Of a DNA stretch of 64,000 nt, positions 29,821 through 39,406 are shown piece after piece (the first letter of the stretch is position 1; the number at the start of each line of letters is the position of its first letter). The notes beneath the pieces are model-generated. The model was not told the origin of the DNA and did not search any database. It worked only from the letters and a program-made list of their open reading frames with translations. The position numbers and the translations under genes are program-made. The stretch comes from Erythrobasidium yunnanense (Eukaryota; Basidiomycota; Cystobasidiomycetes; Erythrobasidiales; Erythrobasidiaceae): positions 3,135,111 to 3,199,110 of the forward strand of contig BCJC01000002.1 in the NCBI GenBank assembly GCA_001600175.1, in the 5' to 3' direction.

Positions 29821-32800
29821 ATGCCATCTCCAGGGACGAAGCAGGCCCTGGCGCAACTCCTGGACCAGGTGAGCTGGATGCATTCAGGTCGTACGGTTTG
29901 ACGATTCGTCTGACGCAAGTCTCGCTCAGATATCAGCCTGCGACGACTCTCGCTTTGCAAACTTGAAACGCCAGCAGGCTCAGGCTACTGAGCAGCGTAA
30001 AGCACAGCTCCGAGCTGCTGAAGCAAGTTCTTCCTCCGCACGTGACGCTCTGCGACATATACAAGAAGAGAGAGCAAGGACAGAGGCTGCTATAGCGCAA
30101 GCTGAGGCACTCATGAAGCAGAAGAAGCGGGCCTTCAAGGAGAGCGACAAAGGCCGATCAGCGACTCTGCCTGCGTCTTCAGCACACATAGAAGCCGCTC
30201 TAGCTGCTTCGAGACTCGCTCTTGATCCGCACAAGATGCCGAAACGATCGTATAGCTCCCCATCCACTCCTACTGCGCAATCTGCTCCCGGTGCTGCTGG
30301 AAAAGTCGGCAAGGTGTTAGGCGTTCTGTTCGGAGATGTACGAGCACGCTCATGGAATGCCAAATCGAGCGCTGTCCTCGAGTTTGAGCGAGAAAGACTG
30401 GCTCTCGCAGGTATCAAGTCGAAAGACGAGCTGGAACTTCGAGCATTGGAGAAGTTGGCGAAAGAGATAAGCTTGACTGGAGGTGGAGATAAAGAGATTG
30501 TCGAGATCTTGAGCATGAAGATGGACGCGAAAGCTAGAGAGGCGGAAATTGCCAAGCTGCAAGAGGCCAGAAGACTGGGAAAGACCATTGAAGACCTCAA
30601 GAAGGCGGAGGAGATGTCGTTCGAAGAGAAGGAAAGACAGGCTAGAATCGAGCTGGAAGCAAACAGGCTTACTTTGATCAAGCTGGTGAGTTCGCTTGCA
30701 ATTTGGCACGAGTACTTGTGACTGACTCGCATTCGATCTCAGCAATACGAGAAGCGAGAGCATGCAAGGAAGCAGCTTGCCGAAATGCAGGAGAAGCTGA
30801 AAGCCCTTGGTCTACCTGCTCAGATCATCATCGACGTAAATCATCTCCGTTTCTCACTCTCTTCGTCAGTCAACTAACTCTCATATGCTAGCACCCGGAG
30901 AAAGATCGTCATCACCACGAAGACGAGGAGTTCTACAGTGACGAAGAGCTCTTTGACGATGATGAAATGTTCGGCTCAGGCGGTGGAGCACATTACGATG
31001 ATCTTTTCGGCGAGACTTCAGCAGACTTTGGCATTCCGCAATATGACGATTGGGGTCGACCGATCCCACAACGAAGAGGCATGCCGAGAAGATCTCTCAC
31101 AGCTGGACATCCTGGACAAGGCCGAAGGATGATCGCCGACGAGGCCATGTTCGAGTGAGATAAATATTCTGTAACAACAGACATTGCAGGATCGCAACTT
31201 TCTGACTAGTTGTTGTATTCTCTCCCTCCCACACTGCAATGTAGCCCTTTTGCTGTCCAGGATCCAGCTGAAGAACTCTTTGGAGCATCGAGACGGCGTG
31301 CCAGAGACGATACGCACCACTACGGCTCCGCGGATGATATGGACCTCTTTGGAGGGCTCAATTCTCGATCTCGTGGACAAATGAGCAGACAAAACACGCT
31401 GAAAAGCGCTCATGACCCTCGACTTGACCTGAAAAGAAGCCAAACAGCGCCTCTGTCTGCTAGTCTTGGAGGAATACCGAGCCGTAGACTCGATCATACC
31501 GATCCTCGACTCGATCCAAACAGTCCATACTACGATAAGCGAGCTGTCCTCTACTACAAGCAGCAAGAGGAAGAGCGTCGTCGTGCTGCGCTGGTTCAGC
31601 AAAGAGCAGAGAAAGACAAGCTTATCCAGAAAGAGCTAGAGCGACAGGCAGCTATGGAAGAGAGGAATCATCAACTCCATCAGATGAACGCCTACTTAGA
31701 TGCTAAAAGCAAGAAAGACGAAGAAGCTCACAGGCTGAAGAAAGAGCAGAAGCTACATGATCAAAATAGAAGAGAAGCGGAAGAACTGGCCAGAAGAGAG
31801 GCTATCATCAAACAGGAGGAAGAGGTTGCTCGGCTGGAGAAGCTGTTGACAGACTATCCGAACGCTGCTATTGCTGGACTGGACTTGAGGAAAGCGAAGA
31901 ACAACCCAAACTTGCTGGCGGATGCTTTGAGACAGGTCGAGGAGAACATAGCAAGAGGGAAAGCGCCCATGCAGTTTATACACTCCAAGCATAGCAATGG
32001 GAACAGACCGGGTGCAAGTCTGCAACCTGAATTAAGACGACCGCAGCTTAGAGAGCATGAAAGAGCCATGGTCCTAGACTTTCTCAAAGCCAATGAGAAA
32101 CAGCAGGCAGCCTACCTAGCGGCTCTTACAACGGACTTGAAGAAGCGATGGTTCTTGGAGTCTGCCTTAGAGCTAGCTCCAGACGCTCAGCAGGACATTA
32201 TTCGAAACCGTTATCTGTCTGCCGAGGGATATGTTCCTCCACCTCGACAGCCTATGGTCATTCCTACTATTGTGGTCGAGCCTGCCAAATCACCTCCGCC
32301 ACAACAAGACACTATGATCTACCCCGAGCCTGCACGACCTATACAGACAAGCCAGCGGCAAGGCAAAGCCAACAAGGGCAAAGGCAAACAGGTAGAAGTG
32401 GATGTAGTCTCCGCGCCGGCACCTGTCGTCATCATCAATCAAGAGATACATCAGCCAACAGCTGGTCCTTCACGATCTGTCACTGTCAGCGATGCAAAGT
32501 CTCCTTCTCCACCCATTGTCGAGCGAAATATCGCTGGACATCCAGGAAGTGGACGTATACTCAGCCGGGCAGAGTATGATGCAGATATAGCTGTAGAGAA
32601 GGAAGAAGCTAGACTACGGGCTGAAATGGCAGCTTTGAACGAGGCTGAAGACCGTCTGAACCGGCAAGAACAGGAAGAACGCGAGCTTCAGGCATTGGAT
32701 GAGTCGGCCGAAACGATGCTGCAAGAAGCCGCTGCTCTAGATCGAGTTGAGCCCGGAGCGGATCAGCCGGGAACAGATGCATGGGGAGACGCATCTGAAG

Positions 32801-35046
32801 CGATAGAAGATCAGCCAGCTGGAGATGCTTGGGGAGACGCTGCTGATGCTCCGGCGCAGCCTGTCGAAGATGCTTGGGGAGGTGCAGCGGACGAAGGGAA
32901 ACAGGACGAACCCGCTCCTGCCGTTGCAGACGATGCTTGGGGAGCACCTTCTCCTCCTCGAAGCATAGCTGGATCTGCCAAGTCCCGTATGCCCACTCCA
33001 CCTCCGATCTTTACGCCTCCTCTTTCACCTACGAAAGTCCTCTCACCTAGCAGTAGTATCCTTTTCTCGCCCACAAAATCGGTTCCTCTGCCGGACGTGG
33101 CCGAAATCGAAGGCCCGCCTCTCATCGACTCTACCGAGAACAATGGTCAGACAGCCAACAGCGATGCGGCGAGCGGATGGGATTCTCCTGCACTTGCTGG
33201 AACGCCGAAATCTTCCGCATCGACAGCAGGCAGTAAAGCTACTTCCAAAGCTGGAACGCCTATTGCGTCGCGCAAGTCGAAGGCAAGCAGTAAGGAAGCA
33301 AGCCTCGTACCGTCCGTCAAGTCTGCTGCGAAAGCATCATCATCTAGAGCGTCCACGCCTCGAGCCGGGTCGATCAAGGCTGGTTCTGTGACTGGCCTAG
33401 ACCTAGTGACGAGTCCAATGCAGGAGGCAGAGGAAGTACCAGGCTCTGTCAAAGCCGCCTCCTCCGTGCCTTCTAGCGCAAGCACACCGAAAGCGACTTC
33501 ACCGAAAGTTGCATCTGCCAAAGCAATGTCCTCCAAAGCTGCATCTCCGATCATAGCGTCTCCTAAAGCTGCGACACCCAAAGTAGCTTCTGTCGCCGCT
33601 AGTCCGTCAGTCAAAGCGCCTTCGCAAGCGGGAACGCCAAAAGCAATTTCACCTCCGCCTGCTCCAGCTCCAGAGCCAGACACTTGGGGATCTCCAGCAA
33701 AGAGTGACAAAGCAGCCTCGCCTGCTGTGTCACAACAGCAAGCTTCAGCGTGGGGTAGTCCAGTTGAATCTGCAAAAGAAGACATCGTCGCATCACCTGC
33801 AAAGGCTGGATCAGCTTGGGGTGGAGCATCTCCTGAGAAAGCAGCTAGCCCGCAAGTACAAGCAGAAGCATGGGGATCTCCAGCCCCTTCAGCACAGTCA
33901 CGCAAGATGCCAACACCTCCTCTACCTCCAGCCAGCGTTTCAGGCTCAGTGAAGAGCAAGCCTGCTTCTCCTACAATATCAGCGGACGCATGGGGCTCGC
34001 CTGCAGCCAAATCTACGAAATCGAGTAAAGCTGGTACTCCTGTCGCGCCAGCTCAGGAAGCGTGGGGCTCGCCTGCAGCTAAGTCTGCTAAGTCGAGCAA
34101 GGCTGCAACGCCGACTGCGCATGTACAAGATGCTTGGGGCTCACCTGCAGCTGCGTCTAACAAGTCAGGCAAAGCCGCGACTCCGGTTGCGCCAGCTCAA
34201 GATGCTTGGGGCTCTCCCGCGGCGGCTACGCCAAAGTCTGCTAAAGCGACTTCACCTGTCGCACGAGGCGGCGGCGATGCATGGGGATCTCCAGCAGCAT
34301 CTCAGAAGTCCGTCAAGAGTGCAGCAGCCGCTGGCGATGAGTGGGGCGCTTCGCCGCCCAAGCATCCTGCCTCCGCCGTTTCTCCAGCTTTCGGAATGCT
34401 CACTTCTCCTCGAGCTCACAGTGTCAAGTCCACGAAGAGTCAGCATGGTGCATGGGGTGAAGCTACTGCTGGCTCGCCTGTCAAAGCTCAAAAAGGCAGC
34501 GATCCAGTGGTGGTCAGTCTCGCTTCACAGCCTACACCGGCTCAAGGACCATCAGCACAAGCAGACATGCGCATGGCGCCCGCTGAAGAGGAGGTTGACC
34601 ATCACAATGAAGGCAGTATGCACGACGAGGAGCCATTCGATCCAGCCGACTTTCCGGTGTTTTACGAGGGAGAATTGGTTCCTGAAGGTGAAGGCATAGT
34701 TGCAGATCCTCCTCCTCACCCCTTCCAGCAAGTCTACCCAATCACAGGCCCGGAAGTAAACGGTGAAGCCATCTTGAACCACCTCTGTGCGGTCGGCCAG
34801 TATGTTTGCAGCTATTTTCCGGACTGCTGACTAGGCTGATATCGATTTTGAATAGCCAAAGCGGGTATGATGCTATTTACCAGTGCAGAGTTCATGAAGA
34901 TCACGAAGAGGGCAGAATCATTGTTCAGGGCTATTATATCTGCTTGCAAGAGACAGGGGAAGGACATCCTGATGATCATCACGGTCATCAGGAAAATCAT
35001 CGCTCGCCGCCGCATTCAGGTGGAAAAGGAAAGCAGGCATTCGTGA
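29821..35046 (+). CDS. Coiled-coil protein with WG-repeat (Argonaute-hook-like) region (1630 aa)
   Basis: Six exons sum to 1631 codons: 29821-29868, 29930-30685, 30743-30835, 30892-31154, 31245-34786 and 34856-35046. The first ~380 residues are mostly charged helix (QAQATEQRKAQLRAAE; EEMSFEEKERQARIE), then an acidic/aromatic patch (DDDEMFGSGGGAHYDDLF) and a second coiled coil (YKQQEEERRRAALVQQRAEK). From about 32760 to 34470 lies a low-complexity domain with 15 WG dipeptides, mostly as DAWG(S/D/G), plus one GW. The WGs sit in Ala/Ser/Pro/Lys-rich spacers such as DAWGSPAAKSAKSSKA. A short basic helical tail (SAEFMKITKRAESLFRAI) ends the protein. WG/GW motifs in unstructured sequence bind Argonaute in other eukaryotes; that role here is inference. 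It might instead be a cytoskeletal or endocytic scaffold. The whole protein is not recognised. Confidence 0.85.
32760..34470 (+). repeat. Imperfect WG-motif repeat region inside the coding sequence
   Basis: Fifteen WG dipeptides occur in this stretch. The last third contains near-periodic units of roughly 20-25 residues (aWGSPAAkSxKSskAgTPVAPAQ pattern), consistent with internal tandem duplication. The first four units (DAWGDA-type) are acidic and more widely spaced. Confidence 0.85.
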
Positions 35047-35305
35047 CAGAGGCCAGCGAGTCGGGTTGGTGAGCTGTAAAAGGAAGGAAGAAATTATGGG
35101 AATGATGGAAGAGTGGTCCTGCTAGCTAGATGCTTTACACTTTGTCAATCATGACAAGCTTGCTAGGAGAATCCAGTATGTTTGCTAGAGATCTGTGTTC
35201 CCGATGAAAAACCCGATTTGACGACCAAAGCATCTTATTTGCACTTAATACGACACTGAAAACTACTGCTTGATGTACACTCTACACTTGAAGAGCCAGT
35301 TTCGA

Positions 35306-35985: not shown

Positions 35986-38900
35986 ATGGTAGTGGTTATC
36001 AAGCCGCAGTTCGTCGCGCATGAGGACGATAAAGGCCGGTCAACCACGATATTCTCGCTCGATGTCAGCCCAGATGGATCAAGACTGGCCACTGCTGGAC
36101 TGGATCAGAAGATAAAGATATGGAACACTCAGCCGCTGCTCGAAGAACACATGGAAGAGGACGAGAACTGCAAGAAGCTCCTCAGTACACTCGGAAGTCA
36201 TAATGGTCAGTCTAATCCGATTGCGAAGTGAGTAGCAATGCTCAAAGTACATACAGGCAATGTGCTCTGTGTACGATGGTCTCCGGATGGACAGTATCTA
36301 GCAAGCGGTTCGGACGACATGGTAGCCATAGTCTGGGAGAAGGATGAGTTAGTCGCACTTCAATTCAGCTACTGATAATATACTGATGCTTCTGCTAATC
36401 AGGAATGGTCATGGCCGAAAAGTTTTCGGCCAAGTTGAGGAGAATCACGAAGTCTGGAAGCCAGTCAGGCGTCTGGTCGGGCATGAGAGCGGTGAGCTCA
36501 CGCATCCTCCTTATCAGTGACGTATGCTGAGGTCATCTTGCTGTAGATATTATGGCTCTAGCTTGGTCGAATGACGGGTATTGGCTGGCTACAGGCGGAA
36601 GTGATAGACTTATCTTCGTATGGGATGCGCAGACCTTTGGTAAGTCTGTATGTACACTCATTGCAGTCCATCATCCTGCTAACGCGTTGACTGCCAGCTA
36701 TGGTCAAGAAGATCAATTTCCACGGAGGAATGGTCAAGGGAATAGCTTTCGACCCGGCAGGAGAGCTCATGACCACTCAGGTACGCTTTCTATTGTCATT
36801 CATATGAAGTTACAGCTAATAGCTGTACATTTCAAGTCCGATGACCGGTCCGTCTGTGTCTGGCGAACTACCGACTGGTCCCTCCTTTCTCAGCTCAAAG
36901 AGCCATTCGTCGACTCCCCAAATGCAAGTTGGTTCAGAAGACTGAGGTGAGTGTCGTCTGATATGTGTAGCGCCTCTGCTGACGCATCTGTTTAGCTGGT
37001 CACCTGAGGGCACTTTCCTAGCCATCCCAAACTCAGTCAACAACGGCGTCTTCGTAGCCGGCATCCTCAAGCGAAAGCATTGGGACCAAGCTACCTCTCT
37101 CGTGGGACATGAAAACGTCGTGGACGTCTCCGCTTTCAATCCACTATCCTTCGTCAAGAACGCCAACAAGCCGGGAAGCGGGCAAAACTTATGTGCAGTT
37201 CTGGCTATTGCTGCTAGAAACTGCATCTCTGTGTGGCTTACAAGCCAAGTACGACCTATCGTGGTCTTCGATACGATCGTTGATCGAGAAATCCTAGACC
37301 TGTCATGGTAAGCGCAGTTCTTAGCCTAAACAGCCACTTATCTGACCGCTTGTTAGGTCGCGAGACGGCACCACTTTATATGCATGCTCGTCTGAGGGCC
37401 GAATAGCAGTCATGCATTTCCGCCTACCCGAGCTGGGCAACGTCGCCCCGTCAGGCTCGCGAGAGTCCTTCCTCGAGACATGGAAGTTCAAGCGACCCGC
37501 CAGGACCGATCTCACAAACGGGAATGGCTCTGCAGGAGGTACTGCTGGCAAGCCAAACATGCTTATGGCTCGCAAAGGCAAGAATGCGGGCCGACCAGCA
37601 TCAACAGCACTCCTGCCTATACCACCTGCTGGCGCTCCACAGAACATCACCATTAATAAAGACGGCAAGCGACGTATACAACCTGCTTTCCTGGGGCTGG
37701 GAGGCATAGTCGCACAGCCCCTTAGATCGGTCACCTCAACTGCCTCCAATGCCACATCCTCCGCTTCAGCTACTGTCTATGCACCTCCAATTCAGCCGAC
37801 AGCAAGCACAAGTTCTGCGCCTTACCAGCCTACCCCCAGCATGGCAGGCGTGCAGTCCTACGAAGATGACGATCAAAGTGCAGACGATCGTCCTCTGCCT
37901 AACGGACACGGTCCTCAGCAGCGAACCTCTCTGCAAGGCATAGGCGTACCTTCATGGGGTGCTCCTCAGGATAGACCTGTCCAGCATGCACAATACAATA
38001 ATAAGAAACGCAAAGTAGCCGACTTAGACTATGATGGCGATAACGAACCCGCAAATCTGGCTCCATATCGTCCGCCAGGCAGAACTCTGGGTGGAGATAG
38101 GCAATTTGCGCCGTACGATGGAGAGCTCGTCGAGATCATGCCGGCGTATATCCCTGAAACAGTGGTCCAAATTCCACAAGAGACGCTTAAGCTGGCTGTT
38201 CCTGCTACCCAGGCCTACCAGTCGCTTAAGTGGGACAAGGAAGATGAAGAGGCAGATAAGCTCGAAGTTCGAAACTATGAAAGCGATGATCGTACGTGTC
38301 CTTCGGTTTATGCGACTCTTCTTCCTACTGATGTATGCAATGATAGGTCCATCCGAAGTCGCTCAGATAAACGCGAAAGGCAAACCCGAATGGCTTGATT
38401 ACGTACCTTCAGCTATCGTCATGGCAGCCTTCTCACCCTACTTTGCGGCGATATCATGCCAAAACCAAACCCTACACGTCTATTCTCCTAGTGGCAGACG
38501 GTAAGTGCAGGCTTCGAACGGCCTGAACCGGAGCATTTCTGACAATTTCATACCAGCCTCTTCCCTGCGCTGGTCCTCGACGCTCCCTGCTCCTACCTGG
38601 ATGCGGCTGGCCACTTCCTATTAGCTATCACCGCTCGAGGCACGCTGGCCGTCTGGGACGTTCGCAAACGAAAAGCAACCTTCCGCCCCACGTCTGTTCT
38701 TCCAATTGTCGATACGGCGACCGATAAGAGCAGGAAAACAGCAGTCATTGTGTCAGCGAAAGTCCGACCAAATGGGCACCCTATCATAGCGCTATCGAAT
38801 GGGTCAGCTTTAACATTTGATGGAGATCTGGAAAGCTGGACTGAGGTCAGCACGACATGGTGGAGTAAGGGTTCAGATTGCTGGGAGGCGCGCAGTCGAG

Positions 38901-39406
38901 CCAGTACGAAAGAAGCCCGCGGAGTGGTTAGGATTATGGAAAGCGAAGCCAACGACTTCCTCGTGGCCCAGCAGAAGCAAGATGCAGACTTCGTCATGGT
39001 CGATGAAGACGAGGAGGTGAAGCCTTCTGTCGAAGGCGCGGAACAAGCTAAACTGGGCAACGGTGAAGACTGGAAGATGGCCTTGACCTTGGGACACCTC
39101 GAAAGCAGAATGGCTGCTGCGATAGTATTAGACAGCTTAGCGGAGTACAAGACGTTCCTTTCGCTCTACGTCAGAAAGCTGGCCGAAGAAGCTTTCCGGG
39201 CAAAAGCCGAAGAGCTAGTTAAGGAGCTGTTAGGGCCGATCTATCACCGTCCTGGACGAGAAGACAATTGGCAACCCCACCTACTCGGTGTCCACAAGCA
39301 CACACTGCTGAGAGACGTCACCTCAATCTGGGGCAAGAGCAAAAATTTCAGCAAACTAGCGACAGAAACGAACGATACTCTGAAGAAGATGTTGGCAGAT
39401 GCGTGA
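35986..39406 (+). CDS. HIR1: HIRA/Hir1 histone chaperone subunit
   Basis: Scaffold of the HIR complex, which deposits H3-H4 independently of replication and represses histone genes. ATG 35986 is followed by [22 protein letters not shown]40 repeats include [88 protein letters not shown] and [19 protein letters not shown]. Near 37664-37695 is the B-domain KRRIQPAFL, the conserved Asf1-binding motif of HIRA. The C-terminal Hir domain follows ([50 protein letters not shown]). The gene ends KKMLADA at 39406. About nine introns interrupt the WD40 half, while the C-terminal half is nearly uninterrupted. All key elements are present. Confidence 0.95.

Follow-up and report, generated by a model that had tools for sequence, protein, structure and literature searches.

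Animal GW182 proteins carry UBA, PAM2 and RRM parts. Their Argonaute-binding domain (TNRC6/GW182) displays several tryptophan residues within a disordered region, which an excerpt of one study places ten or more residues apart (PMC9262622). In Cryptococcus neoformans, Gwo1 (CNAG_00520) and Gwc1 (CNAG_06486) are described as a GW182-like and a GW/WG protein (PMC4778953). Gwo1, found in a transposition screen, belongs to the P-body complex PRSC together with Ago1 (PMC6643885), and siRNA profiles were reported to be normal after its deletion (PMC8022950). GWC1 is listed as one of eight extra RNAi genes, most of which are said to be conserved consistently across Cryptococcus and Kwoniella, with ZNF3 named as the exception (PMC11185503); these statements follow the available excerpts of the papers. 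WG repeats are also found in the Ser/Pro-rich tails of Spt5, as C-terminal repeats, and of plant SPT5L. The literature that we found describes few WG-motif proteins as partners of fungal Argonautes, and a search of open-licence publications returned no paper linking WG repeats, Argonaute and basidiomycetes, nor any linking the WG motif, Argonaute and Cryptococcus. The use of tryptophan pockets by fungal Argonautes is left in doubt by a recent survey, as far as its excerpt goes (PMC12477606).

The window analysed here, a 64,000-nucleotide stretch of Erythrobasidium yunnanense DNA, encodes a large WG-repeat protein which we tentatively interpret, at a little under even chances, as a scaffold docking Argonaute through its WG modules. 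Gwo1 is nearest to it in kind, the likeness being drawn from published description and not from sequence. Like the Argonaute-binding domain of TNRC6/GW182, the protein has several tryptophans in a region predicted to be disordered, and like Spt5 and SPT5L it carries WG repeats in a Ser/Pro-rich tail. Unlike TNRC6/GW182, it contains no RRM, nor any other Pfam family at E ≤ 1, and its spacers are repeated and more uniform. Unlike Spt5 and SPT5L, it has neither NGN nor KOW at that same threshold, and the Spt5 of this genome is encoded separately (L053) with WG repeats of its own.

The gene model comprises six exons on the forward strand (29821-29868, 29930-30685, 30743-30835, 30892-31154, 31245-34799 and 34856-35072), and all five introns start with GT and end with AG. 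Position 31245, where the interval of the original prediction began, is the frame-keeping acceptor of exon 5. The large size then proposed stands, although the figure of 1630 residues gives way to a predicted product of 1643 amino acids. The features of the gene, located at C2:3164931-3170182 in contig coordinates, are as follows.

29821..35072, forward strand: whole gene from start to stop codon, predicted as a spliced open frame with GT-AG introns
29930..31154, forward strand: exons 2-4, encoding a charged N-terminal part in which A, E, K and R are abundant and which closes with an acidic stretch bearing a lone WG at residue 353 (sequence and composition)
31534..31854, forward strand: long predicted helix, residues 484-590 (single-sequence AlphaFold2, query 97-203, pLDDT mostly 80-92)
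32566..32736, forward strand: predicted helix, residues 828-884, immediately N-terminal to the WG region (AlphaFold2, query 441-497)
32782..32943, forward strand: WG cluster 1, with four WG (W at 900, 916, 931 and 952) in acidic surroundings (sequence)
33175..33180, forward strand: the only GW of the WG region, in SGWD, with W at residue 1032 (sequence)
33685..34458, forward strand: WG cluster 2, eleven WG with the core DAWGSP, rich in A, S, P and K, with 22 SP/TP in residues 1196-1460 (sequence)
33991..34214, forward strand: tandem part of cluster 2, with a period of 72 bases or 24 residues (Tandem Repeats Finder and codon comparison of units)
34856..35072, forward strand: last exon, encoding the protein terminus ...ASESGW (sequence)

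The 15 WG and one GW counted in the original prediction were recovered on recounting; a further WG (residue 353) and the terminal ...SGW lie outside its interval, which brings the whole protein to 16 WG and two GW, the second GW being its last two residues. Composition alone predicts 1.29 WG, and the maximum among 20,000 shuffles of the protein was 7. What characterizes an Argonaute hook, several WG/GW beyond chance in a disordered region, is found here, with 16 WG against 1.29 in what is modelled as low-confidence coil. The flanks of the 15 WG of the array are skewed: 10 of these WG have D at -2, 13 have A at -1 and 9 have P at +3 (p 0.0005, 0.001 and 0.006, respectively, against random draws from the region), the W and G themselves defining the units so that their own conservation there is circular. 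A profile spanning positions -3 to +5, leaving out W and keeping G at +1, was then used to scan the region. The 15 top sites were the 15 WG, the weakest scoring 7.4 and the best site devoid of W 5.7, in a test that is partly circular as the profile was built from WG sites and favours them. By this profile, no decayed unit that had lost its W in good flanks was seen in the region.

Tandem repetition among the later units, as originally proposed, is borne out by Tandem Repeats Finder (33991-34214, period 72, 3.1 copies, 75% matches). Regularity of the spacers was also claimed, and holds for part of the array only: W-to-W distances run 16, 15, 21, then 249, then 22, 22, 18, 40, 24, 24, 24, 25, 20 and 37. 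Codons were compared among the four units set exactly 24 residues apart (W at 1303, 1327, 1351 and 1375; six pairs). The DAWGSP core gave a pS of 0.577 and a pN of 0.037, versus 0.768 and 0.315 for the spacers of the same units, an estimate drawn from four units of one gene in which inter-unit exchange would blur the signal. The pN of the core ranks third lowest among 24 circular six-column windows, and the two windows below it, AWGSPA and WGSPAA, overlap with it and both have a pN of 0. Since synonymous sites are heavily diverged among the four units, the tandem copies are not fresh. Among these four units of one gene, the protein sequence of the DAWGSP core is retained while the spacers drift, and the WG motif looks to be kept by selection. 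Within the gene, this is the opposite of the pattern (W no better conserved than spacers) that, in relatives, would have told against the original prediction.

A disordered WG region within a helical protein had been proposed, and the structural model agrees with it. Single-sequence AlphaFold2 modelling of exon 5 (1184 residues; protein residue equals query number + 387) gave a mean pLDDT of 43.0 and a pTM of 0.33. Its confident parts are long single helices, at query 97-203, 265-310 and 441-497, which precede the WG region (query about 513-1070), itself modelled as low-confidence coil save for a few residues called strand; an alignment-free model of this kind is weak evidence, and low confidence does not amount to proof of disorder. 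The two WG clusters differ in charge, residues 891-960 having a net charge of -15 and residues 1196-1460 one of +10. Compared with solved structures, the 739 N-terminal residues matched none at E ≤ 1, and the 127 C-terminal residues returned a single match at chance level (E 1.4).

The original prediction would have fallen had the genome lacked Argonaute. Domain searches of the genome (20.9 Mb, 10 contigs) instead revealed Argonaute genes in three places, RdRP genes in two and one Dicer. Seven Piwi matches mark Argonaute A, on C1 near 3.80 Mb, and Argonautes B and C, on C2 near 2.88 Mb and 2.96 Mb, respectively; PAZ matches accompany A and C. Both RdRP loci are on C2, and a Dicer dimerisation domain lies together with two RNase III domains at 38-40 kb of C7. 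The modelled PIWI parts of the three Argonautes are 48-52% identical to human AGO2. All three contain D597, E637 and D669; H807 is present in A and B and falls outside the modelled part in C. Six tryptophan-pocket residues (P590, F659, K660, E695, C691 and P700) were checked, the yardstick being residues from excerpts of PMC5147811 and PMC9262622 and the comparison covering the Argonautes of this fungus. Argonaute A keeps five of the six, with R in place of F659, while B keeps P590 and P700, and C keeps P590, K660 and P700. The survey of fungal Argonautes, in its available excerpt, describes binding sites that stay variable and a third pocket that is distinctly conserved (PMC12477606), and both checked residues of the third pocket are kept in Argonaute A. 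The three Argonautes (L059, L060 and L061) vary at the six checked pocket positions, retaining two, three and five of them, and this variation may point to different partners.

Argonaute is ranked first among candidate partners because W-G keys in disordered regions and an Argonaute with tryptophan pockets form the best-described pairing. The first half of the protein, predicted to be helical, would probably oligomerise, and about 600 presumably disordered residues would display the 15 WG modules, whose core reads [D/E/S]-A-W-G-[S/x]-P. Each W may fit, like a key, into a small pocket of the partner, and many W per chain would confer avidity, as in GW182-type Argonaute-binding domains. The likeliest partner would be Argonaute A on C1, which keeps the most checked pocket residues of the three. 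In that case the protein would link loaded Argonaute with any partner bound by its helical part or C-terminal end. This Argonaute reading is supported by the WG excess, the core constraint, the coil, the RNAi genes, the pocket residues kept in Argonaute A and the Gwo1-Ago1 precedent. It is weakened by the other WG loci, the F659 to R difference in A, the small number of checked pocket residues kept in B and C and the variability reported for fungal pockets. The RNAi scaffold originally proposed is partly supported by the WG excess, the core constraint within the gene, the RNAi genes and the five of six pocket residues kept in Argonaute A; it loses some of its force through WG-rich frames elsewhere in the genome, at five loci. 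This protein and its rather uniform 15 modules, in a fungus with three Argonautes of which one keeps most of the checked pocket residues, would be a clean system for learning whether tryptophan pockets are used by fungal Argonautes at all.

These other loci came from a genome-wide search for a DNA pattern that encodes WG twice at a distance of 33-72 bases, found in at least 54 places versus at least 12 for the reversed control, both counts being lower bounds. Ten of these places are in the WG gene, the most of any locus listed; other loci listed include L052 on C2 near 2.275 Mb (five matches), the C-terminal region of Spt5 (three; L053, recognized by its NGN and KOW domains) and L055 (two). 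Yet another locus, with four pattern matches, contains GGWGKGS-type repeats. Counted in single open frames and not in gene models, WG number 12 at L052 (two frames together), 5 at L053, 3 at L054, 11 at L055 and 13 at L062. Because WG-rich frames recur at five loci besides this gene, Spt5 among them, WG arrays are non-diagnostic of Argonaute binding in this genome, and an Spt5 with WG repeats need not bind Argonaute.

The main rival, a serious one that we consider less likely than Argonaute docking, holds that the WG modules were selected for another reader, for instance a factor of transcription or RNA processing for which the WG repeats in the Spt5 C-terminal region would be a further target, perhaps gated by proline-directed kinases at SP/TP sites beside W. 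Capping enzymes read the TPAW motif of fission-yeast Spt5, a precedent that we count for this explanation. In the Spt5 C-terminal frame, P is at +5 of all five WG and S/T-P occurs in four of five. S, T or N followed by P soon after WG is likewise seen for 11 of the 16 WG of the window protein, which has the 22 SP/TP in residues 1196-1460 mentioned above, as well as for 8 of 12 at L052, 4 of 5 in Spt5 and 3 of 3 at L054, in comparison with 4 of 11 at L055 and 0 of 13 at L062. The position of P differs, however, at +3 in the window protein versus +5 in Spt5, and no transcription-factor domain was matched in the window protein (Pfam, E ≤ 1). The five WG of the Spt5 region (L053:4082-4636, reverse strand) read WG-S-x-S/E-P, near the window-protein motif. 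A bolder version of the Argonaute reading, which we regard as a long shot, would join the two: one WG-plus-SP code on unrelated proteins (the coiled-coil scaffold, the Spt5 C-terminal region and the L052 pair) would be read by one Argonaute, proline-directed phosphorylation beside W would control docking, and the scaffold, having the highest valency, would pull Argonaute either to transcription or away from it.

It is also conceivable, if improbable, that the protein is a condensate scaffold devoid of a dedicated pocket partner, its tryptophans serving as 'stickers' for weak self-association. Aromatics are few besides the regularly placed W, FYILMV amount to 4-8% in the two clusters and long helices precede the tail, all of which would suit such a scaffold. 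W alone would suffice for this purpose, yet G, P and D/A before W are also kept. Lastly, unequal exchange could have spread the array as a low-complexity repeat functionless in itself. This explanation would account for the 72-base tandem repeat and its low-complexity setting, but is very improbable and largely contradicted by synonymous sites that are heavily diverged between units whose core protein sequence is retained, and by four further units sitting in the different, acidic setting of cluster 1.

The remaining WG-rich frames are varied. At L052, two neighbouring frames on the forward strand (L052:3747-5075 and L052:6032-8161) bear 3 and 9 WG, and both have LSIKGAA inside and FDR[EQ]FPDWL at the end. 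These shared segments suggest a tandem pair of WG proteins, of which the second gave a sub-threshold match to a CCCH-type zinc finger (E 0.031). L055:3415-4836 (reverse strand) combines 11 WG, 6 GW and RGG-like stretches and matched no Pfam family at E ≤ 0.1, and L062:3145-4224 (forward strand) is an Asn/Ser/Gly-rich frame with 13 WG and 9 GW devoid of SP context.

The WG gene itself is single-copy, a 352-residue stretch matching only itself in the genome. The exon-5 protein was also compared with a viral contig collection (8 pattern matches, 0 relatives) and a genome contig collection (27 pattern matches, 0 relatives), and since neither is meant for fungi, the lack of relatives there is uninformative on rarity. 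Synteny with GWO1 was considered through CNAG_00519, its neighbour, which we take to be ERG3. Of the five FA_hydroxylase matches in the genome, the ERG3-like one is on C8, away from the WG gene, and one on C2, about 40 kb from it, is SUR2-like. Synteny therefore gains no support from this weak test, which takes the identity of the neighbour and the ERG3/SUR2 motifs as given. Across the whole window, no Rfam family reached the gathering threshold. The neighbourhood was scanned with Pfam in 20 of the 91 stop-to-stop frames of at least 130 amino acids in the window. The two nearest tested frames upstream of the WG gene had no Pfam family; downstream, the gene is adjoined by one for a HIRA/Hir1-type histone chaperone with WD40, HIRA_B and Hira domains (36531-39406, forward strand).
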